IMG/VR virus record: IMGVR_UViG_3300048079_000094
Location: 1-31,417 of that record
Source of the DNA: a virus
Length of the DNA stretch: 31,417 nt
Reading direction: 5' to 3' (one strand)
Shown here one piece after another: positions 3,622-31,417 of this stretch (positions within the stretch are counted from its first letter, which is position 1; each line of letters begins with the position of its first letter). Below the pieces are notes generated by a model. The model made no database searches. It saw only the letters and a program-made list of their open reading frames with translations, and had not been told where the DNA came from. Made by a program: the position numbers and the translations under genes.

Positions 3622-3801
3622 ATGGCACGATACAAAGACCGTGATCCCAAGCCAGTGCATCGCCGATGCCTGCACTGCGGAGCCAATTTGCGCCGTCCTG
3701 GGAAGCAACTGCGGGCGACGACGCGGTATTGCTCGATCGCGTGTGGGGCGCTGGCCCAGCGGGAGCGGCGGCAGCAGGATCTGCCCAGAGATGCGAAGTA
3801 G
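3622..3801 (+). CDS. Small zinc-ribbon protein
   Basis: This 59-residue basic protein has CLHCG at residues 16-20 and YCSIACG at 36-42, a C-X2-C...C-X3-C zinc site of FCS/treble-clef character (RRCLHCG...RYCSIACG is common in small phage DNA-associated proteins). Starts at GTG 3598 and ATG 3616 are also open. ATG 3622 is preferred because it sits 8 bases after the GGGGG at 3609-3613 and begins the basic domain directly. Its leader may be structured. Confidence 0.65.
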   Translation: MARYKDRDPKPVHRRCLHCGANLRRPGKQLRATTRYCSIACGALAQRERRQQDLPRDAK

Positions 3802-3812
3802 AGGACACCACC

Positions 3813-4112
3813 ATGCACCCCAGCGAGGCCCACGGTCAGCCCCGATGGTCCCCGGGCCCAGGCCCGGGCCCAGGCCCGGGCCCAGGCCCGGGCCCAGGCC
3901 CAGCTCTCATCCTCGCCGGCCGGTCGCTGCTGAGCCTCTGGCCCACGCTCTCGCCTGAAGGGAAAATCCTGGCCGTGGAGCTTTTCACCAACGGAGTGTT
4001 GGGGACGGCGCTTGAGACCACCACGGCGGAGAAGGGGCGGATTAACGAGGTGCTGCGGGAGTTGCTCGGGCGCGTGGAGGCGATGGGGGAGGACTGGGCG
4101 CAGAGGAATTGA
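3813..4112 (+). CDS. Hypothetical protein with Pro-Gly repeat
   Basis: This 99-residue protein starts 7 bases after AGAGGA. Residues 14-30 are an uninterrupted Pro-Gly repeat encoded by a 12-bp tandem repeat. The rest is a compact helical domain (LLSLWPTLSPEGKILAVELF, then GRINEVLRELLGRVEAMG). The repeat is likely a flexible tether whose length can change by replication slippage. No known family. It ends just before a candidate promoter for the replication genes. Confidence 0.65.
   Translation: MHPSEAHGQPRWSPGPGPGPGPGPGPGPGPALILAGRSLLSLWPTLSPEGKILAVELFTNGVLGTALETTTAEKGRINEVLRELLGRVEAMGEDWAQRN
3851..3902 (+). repeat. 12-bp tandem repeat (4.3 copies)
   Basis: CCCGGGCCCAGG is repeated four times without error, followed by CCCA. 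It encodes Pro-Gly-Pro-Gly and is internally palindromic, so single strands can fold and slip. Copy number is likely to vary between relatives in whole 12-bp units that keep the frame. Confidence 0.9.
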
Positions 4113-4169: not shown

Positions 4170-5210
4170 ATGGAAGCGCTTCTGGTGACAAGTGCTGATT
4201 CTCTGACCCCGCGCTCGAGTCCCCGTGCTCCGCTTCCAGAGCCGGTTCAGACACTTTCGACGAGCGCGGGACCAGGGGATCGCTTTGCGCCCGGAGATCG
4301 CGGCATGTCGAGGTTCAGGAAGATTGATATGAGGATGCATGGAGACGAGAAATATCGGCGCTTGAGTGCGTCTCCTCCATGCGGCCAAATGCTCTGGTGG
4401 CACTTGATTGCTGGGAGGCAAACCGGAGTCATTCCTGGACTGTGCTCGATCGGTGAAGCGGCTTTCGCCGAACAATTGCGCTGGTCCCTGAAAGGGTTTC
4501 GGGAAGCGTTTGCCGAAGTGTTTCGAGAAGGCATGGTGGAAGCCGACTGGGAAGCCCAATTAGTGTGGGTCAAAAACGCGGTCAAGTACAATTCGCCAGC
4601 AAACCCAAACGTCGTACTATCATGGCGAGATTCATGGGAAGAACTTCCAGAGTGTGCGCTGAAAGTGCAAGCGGGGCAATATCTTAAGTACTTCGTCGAA
4701 GGGTTAGGCAAAGGGTTTGGCGAAGCGTTTGCGGAAGTGTATCGAAACCCTTTGGCAAATCAGGAGCAGGAGCAGGAGCAGGAGCAGGAGAAGGAGCAGG
4801 AGAAGGAAAAAGACCCCCCTCACCCCCCAAGGGGGCAAGCGGCGGGGTTCGAGGAATTTTGGAGTCAGTACCCGCGGAAGCAGAAAAAACAGGCCGCGTC
4901 AAAAGCCTGGCAGAAGCTGCGGCCGTCTCCGGAGTTGCTGGCCGAGATCATGGCGGCGGTGGCACGGCAAATCACCAGGGAGGATTGGCGGCGCGAGGAG
5001 GGGCGATTCGTTCCCAACCCGGAAGCCTGGCTGAACGGGCGCCGCTGGGAAGACGAAGGATCGGCGGCGCTCAAGGGAGAAACTATAACGGACAAATTGG
5101 AACGTATTCGTGTAGAACGCGAAAGGAGAGAATCGTGCAACGGTCAGACTTCAACGCCTGGGCTCAGTGTCACGCCACCCTCTTTGCCTTTAGCACCGAA
5201 GCCGACTTGA
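4170..5210 (+). CDS. Phage replication initiator / helicase-loader-like protein
   Basis: This 346-residue protein very likely starts phage DNA replication and brings in the host helicase, like lambda O or DnaD/DnaT-type replisome organisers. AAAGGAG (4157-4163) is 6 bases from the ATG; an internal ATG at 4305 is a weaker alternative. Residues 48-195 look like the winged-helix replication domain (RFRKIDMRMHGDEKYRRL, AGRQTGVIPGL). Residues 199-216 are a Gln-Glu repeat linker. Residues 228-300 carry FEEFWSQYPRKQKKQAASKA, then FVPNPEAWLNGRRWED, a signature I associate with the C-terminus of such proteins. The linker is encoded by a hexamer repeat. The next gene overlaps it by 76 bases. Confidence 0.8.
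   Translation: MEALLVTSADSLTPRSSPRAPLPEPVQTLSTSAGPGDRFAPGDRGMSRFRKIDMRMHGDEKYRRLSASPPCGQMLWWHLIAGRQTGVIPGLCSIGEAAFAEQLRWSLKGFREAFAEVFREGMVEADWEAQLVWVKNAVKYNSPANPNVVLSWRDSWEELPECALKVQAGQYLKYFVEGLGKGFGEAFAEVYRNPLANQEQEQEQEQEKEQEKEKDPPHPPRGQAAGFEEFWSQYPRKQKKQAASKAWQKLRPSPELLAEIMAAVARQITREDWRREEGRFVPNPEAWLNGRRWEDEGSAALKGETITDKLERIRVERERRESCNGQTSTPGLSVTPPSLPLAPKPT
4761..4808 (+). repeat. Hexamer tandem repeat in the replication gene linker
   Basis: Eight hexamers of CAGGAG or AAGGAG/AAGGAA type, the first five exact CAGGAG, encode alternating Gln/Lys-Glu. The length can vary by six bases without breaking the frame, so the tether between the DNA-binding and loader parts is probably variable. Confidence 0.85.
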
Positions 5211-8252: not shown

Positions 8253-8280
8253 GTGCCGGCCCCAGCGGAGCGGCAGAGTG

Positions 8281-8487
8281 ATGTCTGAAACTAAAGGTCC
8301 TAGATGTCCTTTTCGTGGCAAATCCCATGAAACCGTATGGTTCCGTGGCTATTGCGCTGGTCAGCGCGGGACGAAACGCGTGTCCTGTCCTTACGTCAGA
8401 GGACCCGGCGGTTTCGCCAAGGCTTGGCTCAGAGGATGGGACGCGGCGCAGGCGAGTGGGATTGCGGTGTGGGCGAGAGAGCGGTAG
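8281..8487 (+). CDS. Ribosome-modulation-factor-like protein
   Basis: This 68-residue basic protein contains RGYCAGQRG (residues 22-30), CPY (36-38) and AWLRGW (48-53). These match the core of ribosome modulation factor: RGYxAGxxG, CPY, then QWLGGW. RMF of Escherichia coli drives 70S ribosomes into inactive 100S dimers in stationary phase. Whether this phage form acts on ribosomes is unknown. GTG 8278 is an alternative start; GGAG at 8267-8270 fits both. It lies alone between the methylase and an acidic small protein. Confidence 0.65.
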   Translation: MSETKGPRCPFRGKSHETVWFRGYCAGQRGTKRVSCPYVRGPGGFAKAWLRGWDAAQASGIAVWARER

Positions 8488-25036: not shown

Positions 25037-25960
25037 GTGGCGATCTTCCGCGGCATCACATTTATCGAGCATGTTCCCGGGTCGCCGATCGAGATTCTGG
25101 AGAATGACGGCGCCCGCGTGACCCGCATGCTCGATTGCGACTGGACCAAGAGCTTGAGCTTCGCCGACAAGCTGCTCGGCTTTCCCAGCATCAAGACCGG
25201 GACCGGCAACATCAAGTACGTGTCGCGCCTCACCCCGGCGTTTCACCCAGACTTTCTCGACGCGATGGGCAATCCGTGGATTTACGCGACACGGATCACC
25301 AAGCTGGAGGGTATCGGTTTCCGGGACAAGACCACGGACGACACCGCCGTCTACAAGACCGGACGACTAACCGTCGTGTACGAGAGCCTGACGTACGAGG
25401 TCAAGGAAGATGACGAGGTACAGGCTGCCGGGGTGCCGGATGAGTCCAGGCTGCTGCGTTACGTGACGATTCTGTTCAAGCCATATGCCGAGTTCCTCAC
25501 GCTGCCGGTCGGATTCATGAGGTGGATCACGGCGGATAAGCAGCCCGTGAATTTCGGGTTGCCGCTATTGATTCCAACATGGCAGATTGACTTCATCTGG
25601 CACCTGATCCCGAAGACCAACCTACCACTCGCCAAGATCGCCGACGCCCAGGGAACCATCAACAACGCTGCTTTCGTCACGCCACTGGGGACGTTTCCGA
25701 CCGGCACGCTGCTGCTGCTGAATGCGGACCTGAAACCAATTCGCTCGGCCCTGGGGGATCGTCTGTATGACATCCACTATCATGTGAAATACAAGGAACC
25801 GATTCTGGGAGGTGGGGGCGACCACAATTTCTTCCTGCGGCGCAAGGGCACAGCACCCAACGAGACGCTCAGTTGGGAACTTGCGACCGCCAATGGATTG
25901 TCGACCGGGGACAGACTTTTCAAGAGCACGGATTTCAAGCTGCTATTTAAGCCAGCCTAA
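25037..25960 (+). CDS. Tail/baseplate protein, unnamed family
   Basis: This 307-residue protein is predicted to start at GTG 25037, 6 bases after GGGAGG (25025-25030); GTG 25034 is too close. Beta-rich domains without repeats: FRGITFIEHVPGSPIEILE, TKLEGIGFRDKTTDD, then RWITADKQPVNFGLPLLIPTWQIDFIWHLIP and TFPTGTLLLLNADLKPIRS. The place after the tape measure suggests a distal tail or baseplate hub component. I do not recognise the family. Its 3' end overlaps the minus-strand gene by 18 bases. Confidence 0.7.
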   Translation: MAIFRGITFIEHVPGSPIEILENDGARVTRMLDCDWTKSLSFADKLLGFPSIKTGTGNIKYVSRLTPAFHPDFLDAMGNPWIYATRITKLEGIGFRDKTTDDTAVYKTGRLTVVYESLTYEVKEDDEVQAAGVPDESRLLRYVTILFKPYAEFLTLPVGFMRWITADKQPVNFGLPLLIPTWQIDFIWHLIPKTNLPLAKIADAQGTINNAAFVTPLGTFPTGTLLLLNADLKPIRSALGDRLYDIHYHVKYKEPILGGGGDHNFFLRRKGTAPNETLSWELATANGLSTGDRLFKSTDFKLLFKPA

Positions 25961-26542
25961 CATGGTGTTCTTGGAGGGGGACTCCCCCCTGAGTTTTTTT
26001 ATGCTCTGGCTCCAGGCAAAGTCCTGCCGAGTGCTGGCCGACACGGCATCGACGGAGATAACTTGGCAATGAGTGAAAACGAGGCGGTCGTATTGCTCTC
26101 CTCTAAATGCACCCAAAATCTTGATCTCATGATCGGGGATGAGTTTCGCCAACTGTGGCCGGTGGCTGGCATCGAAATAACAGAACCCGAAGTGTCCTTT
26201 GTAATCATCCAGAACGATGCCACTAATTTCCTGGTCCAGAGAGCTGGGGATTAAGGAGATGCGGCCGATGATATAGAGCTGCTTATCCAGGTAGTTATCA
26301 TAGAGGGCGATCTGATTGGTCCGATAGGCAGCAAAGAGATCATTGAGGTTGAATGTAAGAATGGGGATTGTGCTGGGACGTGGAGCTTGGACTGACGGCT
26401 CAGGTTCGGCCGGCTCTGCTAGGACGGGGGCTGTTTTCTGTTCGGCCGGCAGTGATTGATGAGTCCACCAAAAGCCTGAGATCGCCAGACTGGCGCCGAG
26501 CACACAGCAGCCCATGGTGAGGAAAGCATTGTCTCGTTGCAT
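25943..26542 (-). CDS. Membrane-anchored OB-fold protein (tRNA_anti-like), moron
   Basis: This 199-residue protein is the only convincing minus-strand gene. Its AGGAG lies 7 bases before the ATG. Residues 7-26 are a membrane anchor or uncleaved signal (LTMGCCVLGASLAISGFWW), 40-60 a Pro-rich linker, and 63-165 an OB-type domain: LNDLFAAYRTNQIALYDNYLDKQLYIIGRIS, then GHFGFCYFDASHRPQLAKL, then IKILGAFRG.....LVFTHCQVI. This is the tRNA_anti-like (PF12869-style) plan of bacterial secreted/lipid-anchored proteins. It could alter the host surface during lysogeny. GC is about 48 %. Confidence 0.75.
   Translation of the reverse strand: MQRDNAFLTMGCCVLGASLAISGFWWTHQSLPAEQKTAPVLAEPAEPEPSVQAPRPSTIPILTFNLNDLFAAYRTNQIALYDNYLDKQLYIIGRISLIPSSLDQEISGIVLDDYKGHFGFCYFDASHRPQLAKLIPDHEIKILGAFRGEQYDRLVFTHCQVISVDAVSASTRQDFAWSQSIKKLRGESPSKNTMLGWLK
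25975..26000 (+). terminator. Terminator for the tail operon
   Basis: AGGGGG (25975-25980) pairs with CCCCCT (25985-25990), loop ACTC, then GAG and seven Ts. It follows the last tail gene by 14 bases. It sits inside the 3' coding part of the minus-strand gene, so that gene's last codons are constrained by it. The stem is short but all GC except one pair. Confidence 0.6.
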
Positions 26543-26658: not shown

Positions 26659-28722
26659 ATGACGGTCCGGCAGTTTAGGGAATTTGAGGAAGGGCAACGG
26701 CCCTCGTCCGAGGAAATGAACCGGCTGACCGGACTAGTGGATTCATTCACCACGTTCACGGCGCCGGCGAGTTTCAACGACGTCACGGGCCTACACCTCC
26801 GCGAGGCAGACCGCAGCCGGATTCTGGCCAAGATCACGGGGGTTCTTGGCAGCGCCTACTCGTGGGTCGAGATGCAGGGTGATGGCACAGGCACGGGCGT
26901 TACCCAGGTGCTGGACGGCGGCCTGTCCGGCAGTACGACGGTCAATCCGGCCTACGAGGTGGCCGGCAGTACCACGGTGGCGACGAACAGCATTGTGGAG
27001 CTGTTCCTGGGCAATGGCGAGTTCTGGTACTTCACGCAGCCCTCCGCCGGCACCCTGACAGTTCGCGAGGTCGATCTCGGCCCGACCGTCACGATGGTCA
27101 CCACGCTGGAATTCGACCAGGTGGACGGCTACGTGGTCAGCACGCCTTCGGCCGGGGTGGCCCGGATCGACCACGCGGATGCTTCGGCGACCCAGCGGGG
27201 GATCGTGTCGCTGACGGCTCAGACGTTGGGCGACGGTGAAAAAAGGTTTGACGACACGGTGGTGATGAAGGCTGAGAACGCAATTAATTGGCGGGTCACA
27301 ATCGGCACGCCTGCAACTTCAATCGGCAGTATAAATATCGGTAGTTTTGCCCCCGGAGACAACGAATTTACCCTGGTCGTGATTGATCTTGCCGGCAGTT
27401 CAGCCAATGCGAGTTTTTACGACACCATTACAGGTATGGTATTTGAGATTCGTCAGGCTGGAAAGATTGCGCGTTACGCTACCACCAGTGCGATAGGGGT
27501 AACGCTCTTCGGTGTCCAATCTCAGGATGCCATGGTTTCGGTGGACGTTCGCGGCGGTATCGTGGTCAGCGGTCTCACGACCCTACCGGTTGGTAGTGGT
27601 GGCACCGGGGCTACCTCCCTGACCGCCAACGGCGTCATCTTGGGCAACGGCACCTCCGCCGTCCAGGTCACGGCCGCCGGCACCACGGGGCTGGTCCTGA
27701 CCGGCACCACGGGGTCGGCCCCCACGTTCCAGGCGCTCGTCGAAGCTTCCCTGACCGCGAAGGGAATCGTCAACCTCTCGGACCAGATTCTCGGTGCTGG
27801 CAACAAGGCCGTCTTCTCTCTCGGGATCGGGACCGGAGCCTCACTGGCGATTGCAGGCGTGACGTTGGAGCAGCTGGGGAAAAGCTACTTTGAGAATGAC
27901 ATTTGGATCAAGCACACCCAGGCCATCGTCGTGTACAACGGCGGCGTGACGACCCAGCGGATCGAGACGAATTCCACCTTGGGGCAATGGAAGCTCCAAG
28001 TCGCCGACGGCGGCAGCTCGATGTTCCTCTCCATCCAGGCGTTCGCTGGCGTCAAGGGGTGCGACCTCACCCACAACGACGGTTCGACGGTGCCGCGATT
28101 CAGCGTCAACGGGACGCTCGGGGACGCGGGCGCTACCTATGCGAATCCCACGTCGATTGTGACCAAGGGCGGGATCGTGACTTCCTGCGTGGCGGGCAGC
28201 CCCGGCAAGGGCACCGTCACGGCTTTCACCGCCACCGCGACCGCCACCGTGGCGAGCACTACCGAAGCTACTCTGATTGGCTCCGGGGTCGGGTCACTGA
28301 CGTTCGCGGCCAACAGCTTGACCGCCGGCAAGACGATCCGCATCCGGGCCCGCGGGTTTTGGAGCACGGATGCCGTCACCGCTGGAACCATGCGCTGGCG
28401 GGTGAAGCTCGGCGCCACCACGGTGCTCGACACGGGGGCCATTACTCCCACTATTGCGATATCGAATTCGCTTTGGCAACTGGACGCGGAGATTACCTGC
28501 CGGACCACTGGGGCCTCGGGGACCGTCTTTGGCCAGGGGTATGCGGATCGCCAAGAGGCGGCCGGGGTGGCGTTCTTGACGTCGGCGATGGTCAACACGT
28601 CGACGACGACGATCGATACCACGGCTTCGCAGATCCTGGACGTGACCTTTGTCTGGGGGGTGGTGAACGATCCGGACAACACGATAAGTTCAACCAATGT
28701 TTCTGTTGAAACTCTCAATTAG
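26659..28722 (+). CDS. Tail fibre / receptor-binding protein
   Basis: This 687-residue protein follows GAGGG by 6 bases. Residues 1-60 form a helical tail-attachment part (TVRQFREFEEGQRPSSEEMNRLT). Then long beta-rich repeats, including GGTGATSLTANGVILGNGTSAVQ near residue 314, a very common tail fibre motif. The last 170 residues (TATATVASTTEATLIGSG...FWSTDAVTAGTMRWRVKLGATTV) look like a jelly-roll receptor-binding tip. The segment encoding residues about 195-294 is only 50 % GC, while flanks are above 70 %, suggesting a swapped module. Confidence 0.85.
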   Translation: MTVRQFREFEEGQRPSSEEMNRLTGLVDSFTTFTAPASFNDVTGLHLREADRSRILAKITGVLGSAYSWVEMQGDGTGTGVTQVLDGGLSGSTTVNPAYEVAGSTTVATNSIVELFLGNGEFWYFTQPSAGTLTVREVDLGPTVTMVTTLEFDQVDGYVVSTPSAGVARIDHADASATQRGIVSLTAQTLGDGEKRFDDTVVMKAENAINWRVTIGTPATSIGSINIGSFAPGDNEFTLVVIDLAGSSANASFYDTITGMVFEIRQAGKIARYATTSAIGVTLFGVQSQDAMVSVDVRGGIVVSGLTTLPVGSGGTGATSLTANGVILGNGTSAVQVTAAGTTGLVLTGTTGSAPTFQALVEASLTAKGIVNLSDQILGAGNKAVFSLGIGTGASLAIAGVTLEQLGKSYFENDIWIKHTQAIVVYNGGVTTQRIETNSTLGQWKLQVADGGSSMFLSIQAFAGVKGCDLTHNDGSTVPRFSVNGTLGDAGATYANPTSIVTKGGIVTSCVAGSPGKGTVTAFTATATATVASTTEATLIGSGVGSLTFAANSLTAGKTIRIRARGFWSTDAVTAGTMRWRVKLGATTVLDTGAITPTIAISNSLWQLDAEITCRTTGASGTVFGQGYADRQEAAGVAFLTSAMVNTSTTTIDTTASQILDVTFVWGVVNDPDNTISSTNVSVETLN

Positions 28723-28736
28723 CCCATGAGGTGATG

Positions 28737-29120
28737 ATGCCAGCCCAGATCGACTACGTGCAGCTGGTGCAGCAGTTTGGCATCATGGGAGCGCTCTTGG
28801 TGAGCGTCCTGGTGGCGATCTATCGCATGGGCAAATGGCTGGCCGCGAACGTGGTGAAGCCGCTGGCAGATCGGCACCTGGTCTTTATCGAGCGCATCGA
28901 GAAGGTACAGGTTGAGCAAAGCGCAACCCTCCAGTCCATCGCCAAGACTCAGGAACGGCTAACGGAAATGAAGCGTGATGAGATCGATCAGTTAAAGGCG
29001 ATTCGCGCGATTGTTTTGGAAACCAAGGAAGACCAGATCCGGGGCCGTACCACGGCAGTGCAGCAGATCCAGGAGGAGCACGCGGAGATTTTGCGGCGGC
29101 TGCCGCAGCAGCAACCATAG
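28737..29120 (+). CDS. Holin-like membrane protein
   Basis: This 127-residue protein has one membrane span at residues 11-29 (FGIMGALLVSVLVAIYRMG), then a long coiled coil (VFIERIEKVQVEQSATLQSIAKTQERL, EIDQLKAIRAIVLETKED). Start: GAGG (28728-28731) is 5 bases before the ATG at 28737, better than ATG 28734. Small single-span proteins with a coiled coil directly after the fibre gene are often class III holins or holin partners. No endolysin is adjacent in the window, so the role stays inferred. Confidence 0.6.
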   Translation: MPAQIDYVQLVQQFGIMGALLVSVLVAIYRMGKWLAANVVKPLADRHLVFIERIEKVQVEQSATLQSIAKTQERLTEMKRDEIDQLKAIRAIVLETKEDQIRGRTTAVQQIQEEHAEILRRLPQQQP

Positions 29121-29185: not shown

Positions 29186-29214
29186 TTGCAAACCGGCTTC
29201 CTCCTGAAGATAAT
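29186..29214 (+). promoter_or_regulatory. Promoter for the ParB-like gene, leaderless type
   Basis: TTGCAA (29186-29191), 17 bases, GATAAT (29209-29214, five of six). The predicted RNA start coincides with the ATG at 29221, and no good Shine-Dalgarno sequence precedes it. The same hexamers at the same spacing occur at 30527-30555, with CTCCTG shared in the spacer. Confidence 0.65.
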
Positions 29215-29220
29215 AGCGCC

Positions 29221-30045
29221 ATGACTGCGACAACAAAAAACCTAACGTTTGAAGAAATTCGCATAAACAAGCGTCACCGCAAAGATCTTGGCGACATCGC
29301 TGGGTTGGCGGCCAGCATTGCCAAGGTGGGTCTGCTGCACGCGCTGGTCCTCAACACCAAGCACGAGCTGATCGCCGGCGAACGCCGTCTCGCAGCGGTC
29401 AAGACGCTCGGTTGGACCAAGGTTCCGGTTCACGTCGTGGCTTCGCTGGACGACGCAGCCATGGCGCTGGCGGCGGAGCGCGACGAGAACGAATGCCGCA
29501 AAGCGTTCACACCCTTCGAGGCGCTAGCGCTGGGGCGAGAGCTGGAGAAGCTTGAAAAGCCAAAGGCCGATCAAAGACAAAAAGCAGGGAAGAAACCTCT
29601 GGAGAATTCCTCCACAGGTAATGGAGATGCGAGTAGCAGAAGAACACGCGACCAGGTCGGTGCCGCTCTGGGCATGCATGGCACGACCTACGAGAAGGCC
29701 AAGTTCGTCGCCGACAAGGCCGAGGAGAATCCGAAGCTGTACGCCGAGTTCGCCGAGCAGATGGAGCGCACGGGCAAGGTGGACCCGGCCTACCGCAAGG
29801 CGAAACGGCAGACTGCTTTTGGGCACGTGCCCATCTCTGAGACCCGGATCGAGCGGACGGGAGGGGACGCTTTGGAAGATGTCCTGATGTCCCTGAATCG
29901 GCGTCTGCTTGGCATTGAACACCATTATGGCACTTGGAAAGAGATTGCCGCAGCTCTTGGTGAGGAGGAGCGCCAGGGACTTAGAGAAATCACCTTGGCT
30001 GCCTCCGTTCGCCATCTCCAAAGCATTATCAAGGAGTTGTCATGA
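29221..30045 (+). CDS. ParB-like nuclease-domain protein
   Basis: This 274-residue protein has a ParB N-terminal fold at residues 10-90: INKRHRKDLGDIAGLAASIAKVGLLHALVLN, then LIAGERRLAAVKTLGWTKVPVHVV with the GERR box, which binds CTP in true ParB proteins or catalyses in Srx/nuclease relatives. Residues 130-200 hold a helical DNA-binding half (RRTRDQVGAALGMHGTTYEKAKFVADKA). No ParA gene or clear parS is visible. Phages use such proteins as regulators, nucleases or partition factors. It overlaps the next gene by ATGA. Confidence 0.85.
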   Translation: MTATTKNLTFEEIRINKRHRKDLGDIAGLAASIAKVGLLHALVLNTKHELIAGERRLAAVKTLGWTKVPVHVVASLDDAAMALAAERDENECRKAFTPFEALALGRELEKLEKPKADQRQKAGKKPLENSSTGNGDASSRRTRDQVGAALGMHGTTYEKAKFVADKAEENPKLYAEFAEQMERTGKVDPAYRKAKRQTAFGHVPISETRIERTGGDALEDVLMSLNRRLLGIEHHYGTWKEIAAALGEEERQGLREITLAASVRHLQSIIKELS

Positions 30046-30515
30046 GGAAGACGACAAAAACTCAACCCAATCTAAACCACCGGCAAGCACTTGCTCATGC
30101 GGTTCATGAAGCCGGACAGGACCTTGCTCTTCTGACCATCACCAAACTCGTCGATTTGGCCCGTAATGCGGGCATCATTCCTGAGGAAATTGGGGCGAAT
30201 GCTTTGTGGCTGGCCCACAGCGAATGGGTGCGGCACGCAGCCGGCTATCACGACCCCGAGGAAGTTCCGGAATTCTTCAACGTCAAGATCGAGGATACGG
30301 TACCTGGGGAAGAGGATGGCGAGGAAGAGAAGATCATAATGGTTCAGGGCTACAAGTTTTCAGAAACTCTGAACCAAGAGGAATGGGATCAGGTGCTGGA
30401 TACCTACAAAAAAGGCTGGAAGACGAAAAAGAAGCTCTATATCAAGATAGTAAAATTGCGCAATGAATACGCCGTGCAAAATGGTTGGCCATTGATTCCA
30501 GTTCCCAGGGGATAA
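30042..30515 (+). CDS. Hypothetical protein downstream of the ParB-like gene
   Basis: This 157-residue protein starts in an ATGA overlap with the ParB-like gene, so the two share an mRNA. A helical first half (RQALAHAVHEAGQDLALLTITKLVDLARN) is followed by an acidic loop (GEEDGEEEK) and a basic end (KKGWKTKKKLYIKIVKLRNEY). There is no enzyme motif. It may partner the ParB-like protein, but nothing beyond overlap supports this. Confidence 0.65.
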   Translation: MRKTTKTQPNLNHRQALAHAVHEAGQDLALLTITKLVDLARNAGIIPEEIGANALWLAHSEWVRHAAGYHDPEEVPEFFNVKIEDTVPGEEDGEEEKIIMVQGYKFSETLNQEEWDQVLDTYKKGWKTKKKLYIKIVKLRNEYAVQNGWPLIPVPRG

Positions 30516-30526
30516 TTCCTTGTCTC

Positions 30527-30555
30527 TTGCAATCCTCTTCTCTCCTGGAGATAAT
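30527..30555 (+). promoter_or_regulatory. Promoter for the secreted protease
   Basis: TTGCAA (30527-30532), 17 bases, GATAAT (30550-30555), the same hexamers and spacing as at 29186. Here the RNA start (near 30562) leaves a 24-base leader with AGGAG (30572-30576) before the TTG start at 30586. Confidence 0.65.
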
Positions 30556-30585
30556 GATCCCTGAACGTGGCAGGAGAAATCCCGC

Positions 30586-31417
30586 TTGCTCCGCGCTGCG
30601 TTCATGCCTTGGCTGGCACTTGCACTTCTCCTCTGGACCCATCCGGCTCCGGGCCAATCGTGCCCTACCTGCCCCTCCCCGGGGCAGTTCCGTGCCCCAG
30701 CTCCTCCCGTGGTCCGTGAGTCCCGCGAGCCCTTGGCCGCCCAGGCGGACCCGCGGCTTGTAGCCGCAAGCGTCCATGTCACGAACAGTCTGGGCGGCCA
30801 TATCTCCGGGGGCTCCGGGACCTGCGTGGCCGTGGAGGGAGATCGGGCGCTCGTGTTGACTTGCAGGCATCTGTTCCCGGCAGGCCGCGCCGGGCGGGTA
30901 GCCGTTAGATTCCCGTCCGGACGCGGTTTCCAGGCCACGCTCATCGGCGTGGATGACCGCGCCGACCTCGCCGCGCTCGCCATCGCGGCCGACGCCTCGA
31001 CCCCATGGGTGCCGATCTCGCCAGCGCCTGCTCGGACGGGGGAGGCTGTCTGGCAGGTCGGTTACCCCCACGGCCAAGGCCCACGCCAACGCCAGGGGGC
31101 TAGCAACGGGGTCCGGGGTTATGTCGGCGGGACTCCGGTGTCGTCCTTTGCGCTCAATACGACCTCTGGTGATAGTGGGAGCGGGATCTTCCGCGCCGCC
31201 GATTCCACCTTGATCGGTGTCTTGTGGGGCGGGAGTGGCGGCGACACTTCCGCCACCGGAATATCCGACATCAACCGGTTCTTGGAGGAGCGGTGCTGTC
31301 GCTGGTTTTCAGCCTGGCGACGACCTGTTGTCGTGGTGACGCCGTCTCCTCCAGGCCGTGTCCCGGCGCCGGGCGTGATTTCTCCTGTCACCCCGGCGCC
31401 GCCTCCTCCAACCCCTA
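30586..31417 (+). CDS. Secreted trypsin-like serine protease (3' end cut by window)
   Basis: At least 277 residues; the frame stays open to the last base. TTG 30586 follows AGGAG by 9 bases and gives a good signal peptide (residues 1-25: MLRAAFMPWLALALLLWTHP). ATG 30604 lacks a ribosome binding site. The catalytic triad of the chymotrypsin/trypsin fold is present: H95 (LTCRHLF), D127 (DDRADLAAL) and S197 (TTSGDSGSGIF). WQVGYPHGQG and LIGVLWGG are standard substrate-site strands. The C-terminus becomes Pro-rich (PAPPPPTP), a likely wall or envelope linker. Role in lysis, entry or virion processing is open. Confidence 0.8.
   Translation, partial: MLRAAFMPWLALALLLWTHPAPGQSCPTCPSPGQFRAPAPPVVRESREPLAAQADPRLVAASVHVTNSLGGHISGGSGTCVAVEGDRALVLTCRHLFPAGRAGRVAVRFPSGRGFQATLIGVDDRADLAALAIAADASTPWVPISPAPARTGEAVWQVGYPHGQGPRQRQGASNGVRGYVGGTPVSSFALNTTSGDSGSGIFRAADSTLIGVLWGGSGGDTSATGISDINRFLEERCCRWFSAWRRPVVVVTPSPPGRVPAPGVISPVTPAPPPPTP

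Follow-up and report, generated by a model that had tools for sequence, protein, structure and literature searches.

Exported His-Asp-Ser proteases with a Trypsin_2 domain (PF13365) are typified by HtrA/DegS, which carry a GNSGG motif and a PDZ domain. Collagen triplets beside a coiled coil, in a trimeric stalk design, are known from the collagen-like fibres EPclA and EPclB of E. coli prophages, which have PfN and PfC fibre domains and no protease, and for which no signal peptide is mentioned (PMC3368898). Bacterial collagen-like surface proteins such as Scl and Lcl combine a signal peptide, a globular part and a collagen stalk, and a small gene nested in the +1 frame of a phage gene whose product is exported is familiar from the embedded spanins Rz/Rz1, where the outer gene encodes the inner-membrane spanin (PMC6139136). 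The phage gene described here resembles each of these in part. It lies at the 3′ end of a stretch of 31,417 bases (the window), which constitutes the linear IMG/VR record IMGVR_UViG_3300048079_000094, and a first-pass annotation of the window had read it as a secreted trypsin-like protease with a Pro-rich end in the lysis region of a phage, possibly one with a planctomycete host.

The sequence extension proposed at that stage was supplied by an overlapping contig, IMGVR_UViG_3300048080_000233 (45,963 bases), which is identical to the window across the protease region and differs from it elsewhere by one mismatch and by 6 bases in the length of one repeat. This contig runs beyond the window end and then wraps to the window start. 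Its two ends, 99.5% identical over an overlap of 197 bases, close the phage genome at ~45.76 kb, with the protease gene contained in full. At window 3666-4112 and 4170-5210 lie a run of Gly-Pro dipeptides and a Gln-Glu repeat; the latter has 6 bases fewer in the window than in the overlapping contig, which represents a difference in repeat length between two assemblies of the same phage. For comparison we used a sister phage, IMGVR_UViG_3300025325_000102, whose capsid protein is 74% identical to that of the window phage. The features of the locus are as follows (positions are those of the window, or of its extension along the contig, where the locus is labelled L002):

28737..29120, + strand: one-TM coiled-coil protein (the "holin-like" gene), 58% identical in the sister phage, without a family match
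29186..29214, + strand: promoter-like site TTGCAA-N17-GATAAT preceding the ParB gene (exact match; consensus scan)
30527..30555, + strand: promoter-like site TTGCAA-N17-GATAAT preceding the protease gene (exact match to the ParB site; consensus scan)
30572..30576, + strand: Shine-Dalgarno AGGAG, 9 bases upstream of the TTG start (sequence)
30586..31417, + strand: 5′ part (the first 277 codons out of 407) of the gene for the predicted exported trypsin-like protease with a collagen stalk (ORF reading, overlapping contig)
30586..30654, + strand: predicted signal peptide MLRAAFMPWLALALLLWTHPAPG (hydropathy; same type of N-terminus in the homologue)
30817..31221, + strand: Trypsin_2 peptidase domain, residues 78-212, with His95, Asp127 and Ser197 (Pfam; alignment)
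31321..31417, + strand: Pro-rich linker leading into the stalk (translation)
L002 8944-9156 (extended 31529-31741), + strand: embedded +1-frame ORF of 70 codons inside the collagen-coding stretch (two-phage comparison)

The ORF running off the window end is real, with its TTG start and Shine-Dalgarno sequence, and continues for 392 bases on the overlapping contig (G001; L002 8001-9224, extended coordinate 31809). Its product of 407 amino acids consists of a predicted signal peptide (1-23), a short Pro-rich linker, the Trypsin_2 domain (78-212), a second Pro-rich linker (about 246-296) and a C-terminal stalk, in which a coiled-coil-like helix (about 297-320) is followed by 17 unbroken Gly-X-Y triplets (325-375) and a second helix or coiled coil, the flanking helices being predicted by a low-confidence model. 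An AlphaFold model of the whole protein was discarded (pLDDT 35). The C-terminal part visible in the window is indeed Pro-rich; it is a linker rather than an end, as the stalk continues past the window. Residues 6-16 give the N-terminus a hydrophobic character (mean KD 2.25) and that of the homologue is of the same kind despite its diverged sequence, which supports the proposed signal peptide. A lipoprotein reading was rejected, as GQS before Cys26 does not fit a lipobox. The Trypsin_2 match is strong (66.7 bits, 4.9e-18, with the cut-off at 27.6; 62.1 bits in the homologue), and H95, D127 and S197 (codons at 30868, 30964 and 31174) are invariant in both phages, consistent with the His-Asp-Ser protease first proposed. 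From the catalytic residues, the type of export signal and the stalk, all seen at the sequence level, we infer activity, export and trimerisation, respectively.

The nearest solved relatives by sequence in the PDB are DegS (4.4e-8) and DegQ. Unlike these, the phage protease carries a GDSGSG motif and, among the matches listed, Trypsin_2 and Collagen only, with the collagen/coiled-coil stalk in place of PDZ; it scores 34 bits with the NCBIfam profile degP_htrA_DO against a cut-off of 416 and misses all HtrA family cut-offs by far. The Pfam Collagen match (29.0 bits against a cut-off of 27.2; 37.7 bits in the homologue) means that Trypsin_2 and Collagen are joined in one protein in both phages, and the uninterrupted triplets beside a coiled coil are the combination by which collagen-like fibres are recognized. 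In contrast to EPclA/EPclB, however, this stalk is preceded by a predicted signal peptide and a protease head. The collagen part also gives weak NCBIfam matches that recall Scl and Lcl; the phage-borne protein differs from these in staying far under the family cut-offs, in lacking LPXTG and in its protease head.

The sister-phage homologue is 69% identical, has the same domain order with 17 triplets and an intact triad, and occupies the equivalent place relative to the fibre and one-TM protein genes; the ParB and methylase genes are not kept beside it. Between the two phages the protease domain shows pS 0.61 vs pN 0.25, a ratio by which it is under purifying selection. In the sister-phage copy the signal peptide is closely followed by an in-frame TGA (L024 2080-2082, − strand), for which a sequencing error, a recent nonsense mutation or selenocysteine may be considered; this copy may accordingly be broken, misread or recoded. 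That it is a selenoprotein, in which the TGA encodes the Sec of a UxxC motif, or a pseudogene of recent origin seems to us very remote: the TGA does occupy the position of the first Cys of CPTCP, yet a hairpin search downstream of it gave no stable structure (z +1.18) and hence no support for selenocysteine, and the case turns on a single base in one metagenome contig. The same contig encodes an integrase, which makes a temperate lineage probable; the window phage's own genome yielded no integrase. Upstream of the sister-phage protease lies a gene for an RTX-repeat protein (L024 2484-3380, − strand) with the N-terminus VEQLEDRLTPA. These two phages are the only known carriers of the protease and its embedded ORF in IMG/VR; tblastn recovered no homologues from 50,697 phage records, and none was found in the genome collection searched. 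In 392 planctomycete genomes the matches examined were only HtrA-type proteases without collagen, and the 70-residue embedded product gave one match at chance level.

Comparison of the two phages drew attention to the collagen-coding stretch, where synonymous change is nearly absent (pS 0.111 vs pN 0.155), apparently because of the +1-frame ORF that it contains. This ORF has the same ATG, the same TAG and 70 codons without an indel in both phages, is 83% identical at the protein level, and is preceded at 7 bases by AGGAG, for which the homologue has AGGTG. In the protease frame, 5 of 42 fourfold sites are changed inside the embedded ORF vs 37 of 64 in the protease domain (p 1.8e-6). When 1,282 windows of 42 fourfold sites each were scanned across the 22 genes shared by the phages, the minimum lay over the embedded ORF; all windows with <12 changes lie in the protease gene, and every window outside it has at least 12. 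By codon position, the changes in the stretch fall 17/7/8 when read in the collagen frame and 7/8/17 when read in the embedded one; those in the protease domain fall 28/17/62 in its own frame. Simulations in which the collagen-frame protein of the homologue was held and synonymous choice left free gave a mean +1-frame identity of 26 of 70 residues (maximum 40), against the 58 observed. The first base of the glycine codons is changed at none of 17 positions vs 12 of 34 at X/Y codons (p 0.004), even though a change synonymous in the embedded frame was available at every one of the 17. Gly-X-Y codons commonly leave their +1 frame open, and openness alone proves nothing; the evidence is the substitution pattern, which in this one sequence pair indicates that selection acts in both frames of the overlap. 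The stretch thus appears, from this comparison, to be dual-coding.

A recently exchanged segment, or an RNA or DNA element, could also lower synonymous divergence here, and the comparison is of two sequences only. We consider such an explanation highly unlikely, as the changes cluster at the third position of the embedded frame, the edges of constraint coincide with the ATG and TAG of the embedded ORF, a recent exchange would not yield a pN above pS, and the 70-residue product is predicted with confidence to fold. AlphaFold models it as three helices (mean pLDDT 84, pTM 0.68), a prediction built on two sequences. A programmed frameshift into the +1 frame was rejected, since conservation begins at the embedded ATG. 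A fold search with the model returned nothing convincing (best match E 0.17), and a TetR_C_15 match below the cut-off was taken as chance helical similarity. Inspection of the sequence revealed no hydrophobic signal, TM segment or lipobox Cys. Unlike Rz/Rz1, therefore, the embedded gene encodes a product without a lipoprotein signal or TM segment, predicted to be a folded helical protein, and the outer gene encodes a protease.

The order of genes upstream is as first described: fibre (26659-28722), holin-like TM protein and ParB (29221-30045, Pfam 1.4e-8), to which we add a 157-residue ORF between ParB and the protease (30042-30515) that the first-pass annotation lacked. The promoter noted as matching that of ParB does so exactly, the site occurring in just two copies in the 45.76-kb genome. 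On the 3′ side the protease gene overlaps by 4 bases a gene coding for a ParB-like N-terminus fused to an HTH and an N6/N4 DNA methylase (L002 9221-10447, extended 31806-33032). Elsewhere in the window, the sole clear minus-strand gene of the tail region (25943-26542) has a signal-peptide-like N-terminus, is probably the origin of an OB-fold (tRNA_anti-like) match and resembles an inserted accessory gene; a ribosome modulation factor/CrpP-like family match among the phage ORFs probably belongs to 8278-8487.

To look for lysis genes, ORFs of at least 60 amino acids from the closed genome, mostly on the forward strand, were compared with Pfam and PHROG, and unannotated ORFs were rescanned with the full family lists. 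At the thresholds used, these ORFs gave no match to an endolysin, spanin, holin or other lysis family, and the ORFs scanned from the sister contig likewise gave none to endolysins, spanins or further lysis families. The search for an endolysin on extended sequence, suggested with the first reading, hence finds no recognizable peptidoglycan hydrolase in the closed genome; this is an absence of recognition only. It is compatible with a protein-cutting lysis factor, in which the exported protease would replace or assist an endolysin and be released or activated with the one-TM protein, no other gene being shared by the two phages in the interval from the fibre to the next structural cluster. Several observations make this doubtful. 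Endolysins of the host group may go unrecognized, and the holin-like gene has no family match. Planctomycetes possess lysozyme-sensitive peptidoglycan (PMC4432640), which contradicts the idea of a protein wall in its place and weakens the earlier argument from a protein-rich envelope. The protease has its own host-type promoter, shared with ParB, and is followed by the ParB-like/DNA-methylase gene; a promoter with the hexamers and spacing of that of ParB would suggest an accessory gene read by host polymerase rather than part of a late lysis cassette. With no lysis gene identified there, the designation "lysis region" is not supported.

A different role is suggested by the stalk, since stalks of coiled coil and collagen are a typical feature of phage tail fibres and a virion function is conceivable: a trimeric fibre on a collagen stalk could use its protease heads to digest layers of surface protein at entry. 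The pairing of coiled coil and collagen is established in phage fibres (PMC3368898), PHROG tail-fibre families match the collagen part, and fibre and LamG genes flank the protease region. Nevertheless, a signal peptide would take the protein out of the cytoplasm, where virions are assembled, and the gene has its own promoter and accessory neighbours; we regard a virion appendage as unlikely.

We favor, with moderate confidence, an accessory envelope or surface protease that is exported and has an embedded partner protein. The Trypsin_2 triad and the signal-peptide-like N-terminus support the exported protease. Transcribed from its own host-type promoter, the enzyme would be trimerized by its coiled-coil/collagen/coiled-coil stalk and would most likely cleave host envelope or surface proteins during infection or lysogeny, whether in surface remodelling, in the exclusion of other phages or in helping to loosen the envelope. 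The stalk-coding stretch would, from its own ribosome-binding site, also give the three-helix protein, which is likely cytoplasmic as it has no export signal and might, tentatively, act on the protease before export as its partner, for example by chaperoning or inhibiting it. A stronger version is a new kind of envelope-attack module in which the trimeric, collagen-stalked protease takes the place of an endolysin or clears the surface, while the folded partner keeps it in check or chaperones it in the cytoplasm up to its export; this we consider distinctly improbable.

A planctomycete host is plausible without being proven. Capsid relatives ~54% identical occur in five planctomycete genomes (G068, G089, G201, G246 and G404; loci L074-L081), with a similar head-gene order nearby, and the VEQLEDRLTPA start of the sister-phage RTX-repeat protein is one that we take to be typical of secreted proteins in Gemmata-type planctomycetes. 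Against this, one Chloroflexota genome has capsid relatives at 51%, and the terminase is equally close to Chloroflexota and Bacillus. Searching 246 planctomycete genomes with the whole RTX-repeat protein returned RTX-repeat matches only and did not confirm the Gemmata-type start. The planctomycete capsid loci may be related prophages or possibly a domesticated element; no protease relatives were found in the stretches examined of planctomycete loci with 51-54% identical capsid proteins.

If true, the double use of repetitive collagen-coding DNA as the gene for a globular protein would be unusual among dual-coding arrangements, and a narrow literature search found no earlier description of it. 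Because Gly-X-Y codons tend to leave the +1 frame open, other bacterial and phage collagen genes could be screened by the codon-position test. A closed genome without a recognizable endolysin and with a predicted exported protease would likewise make the exit from, or alteration of, the host testable in a little-studied group.
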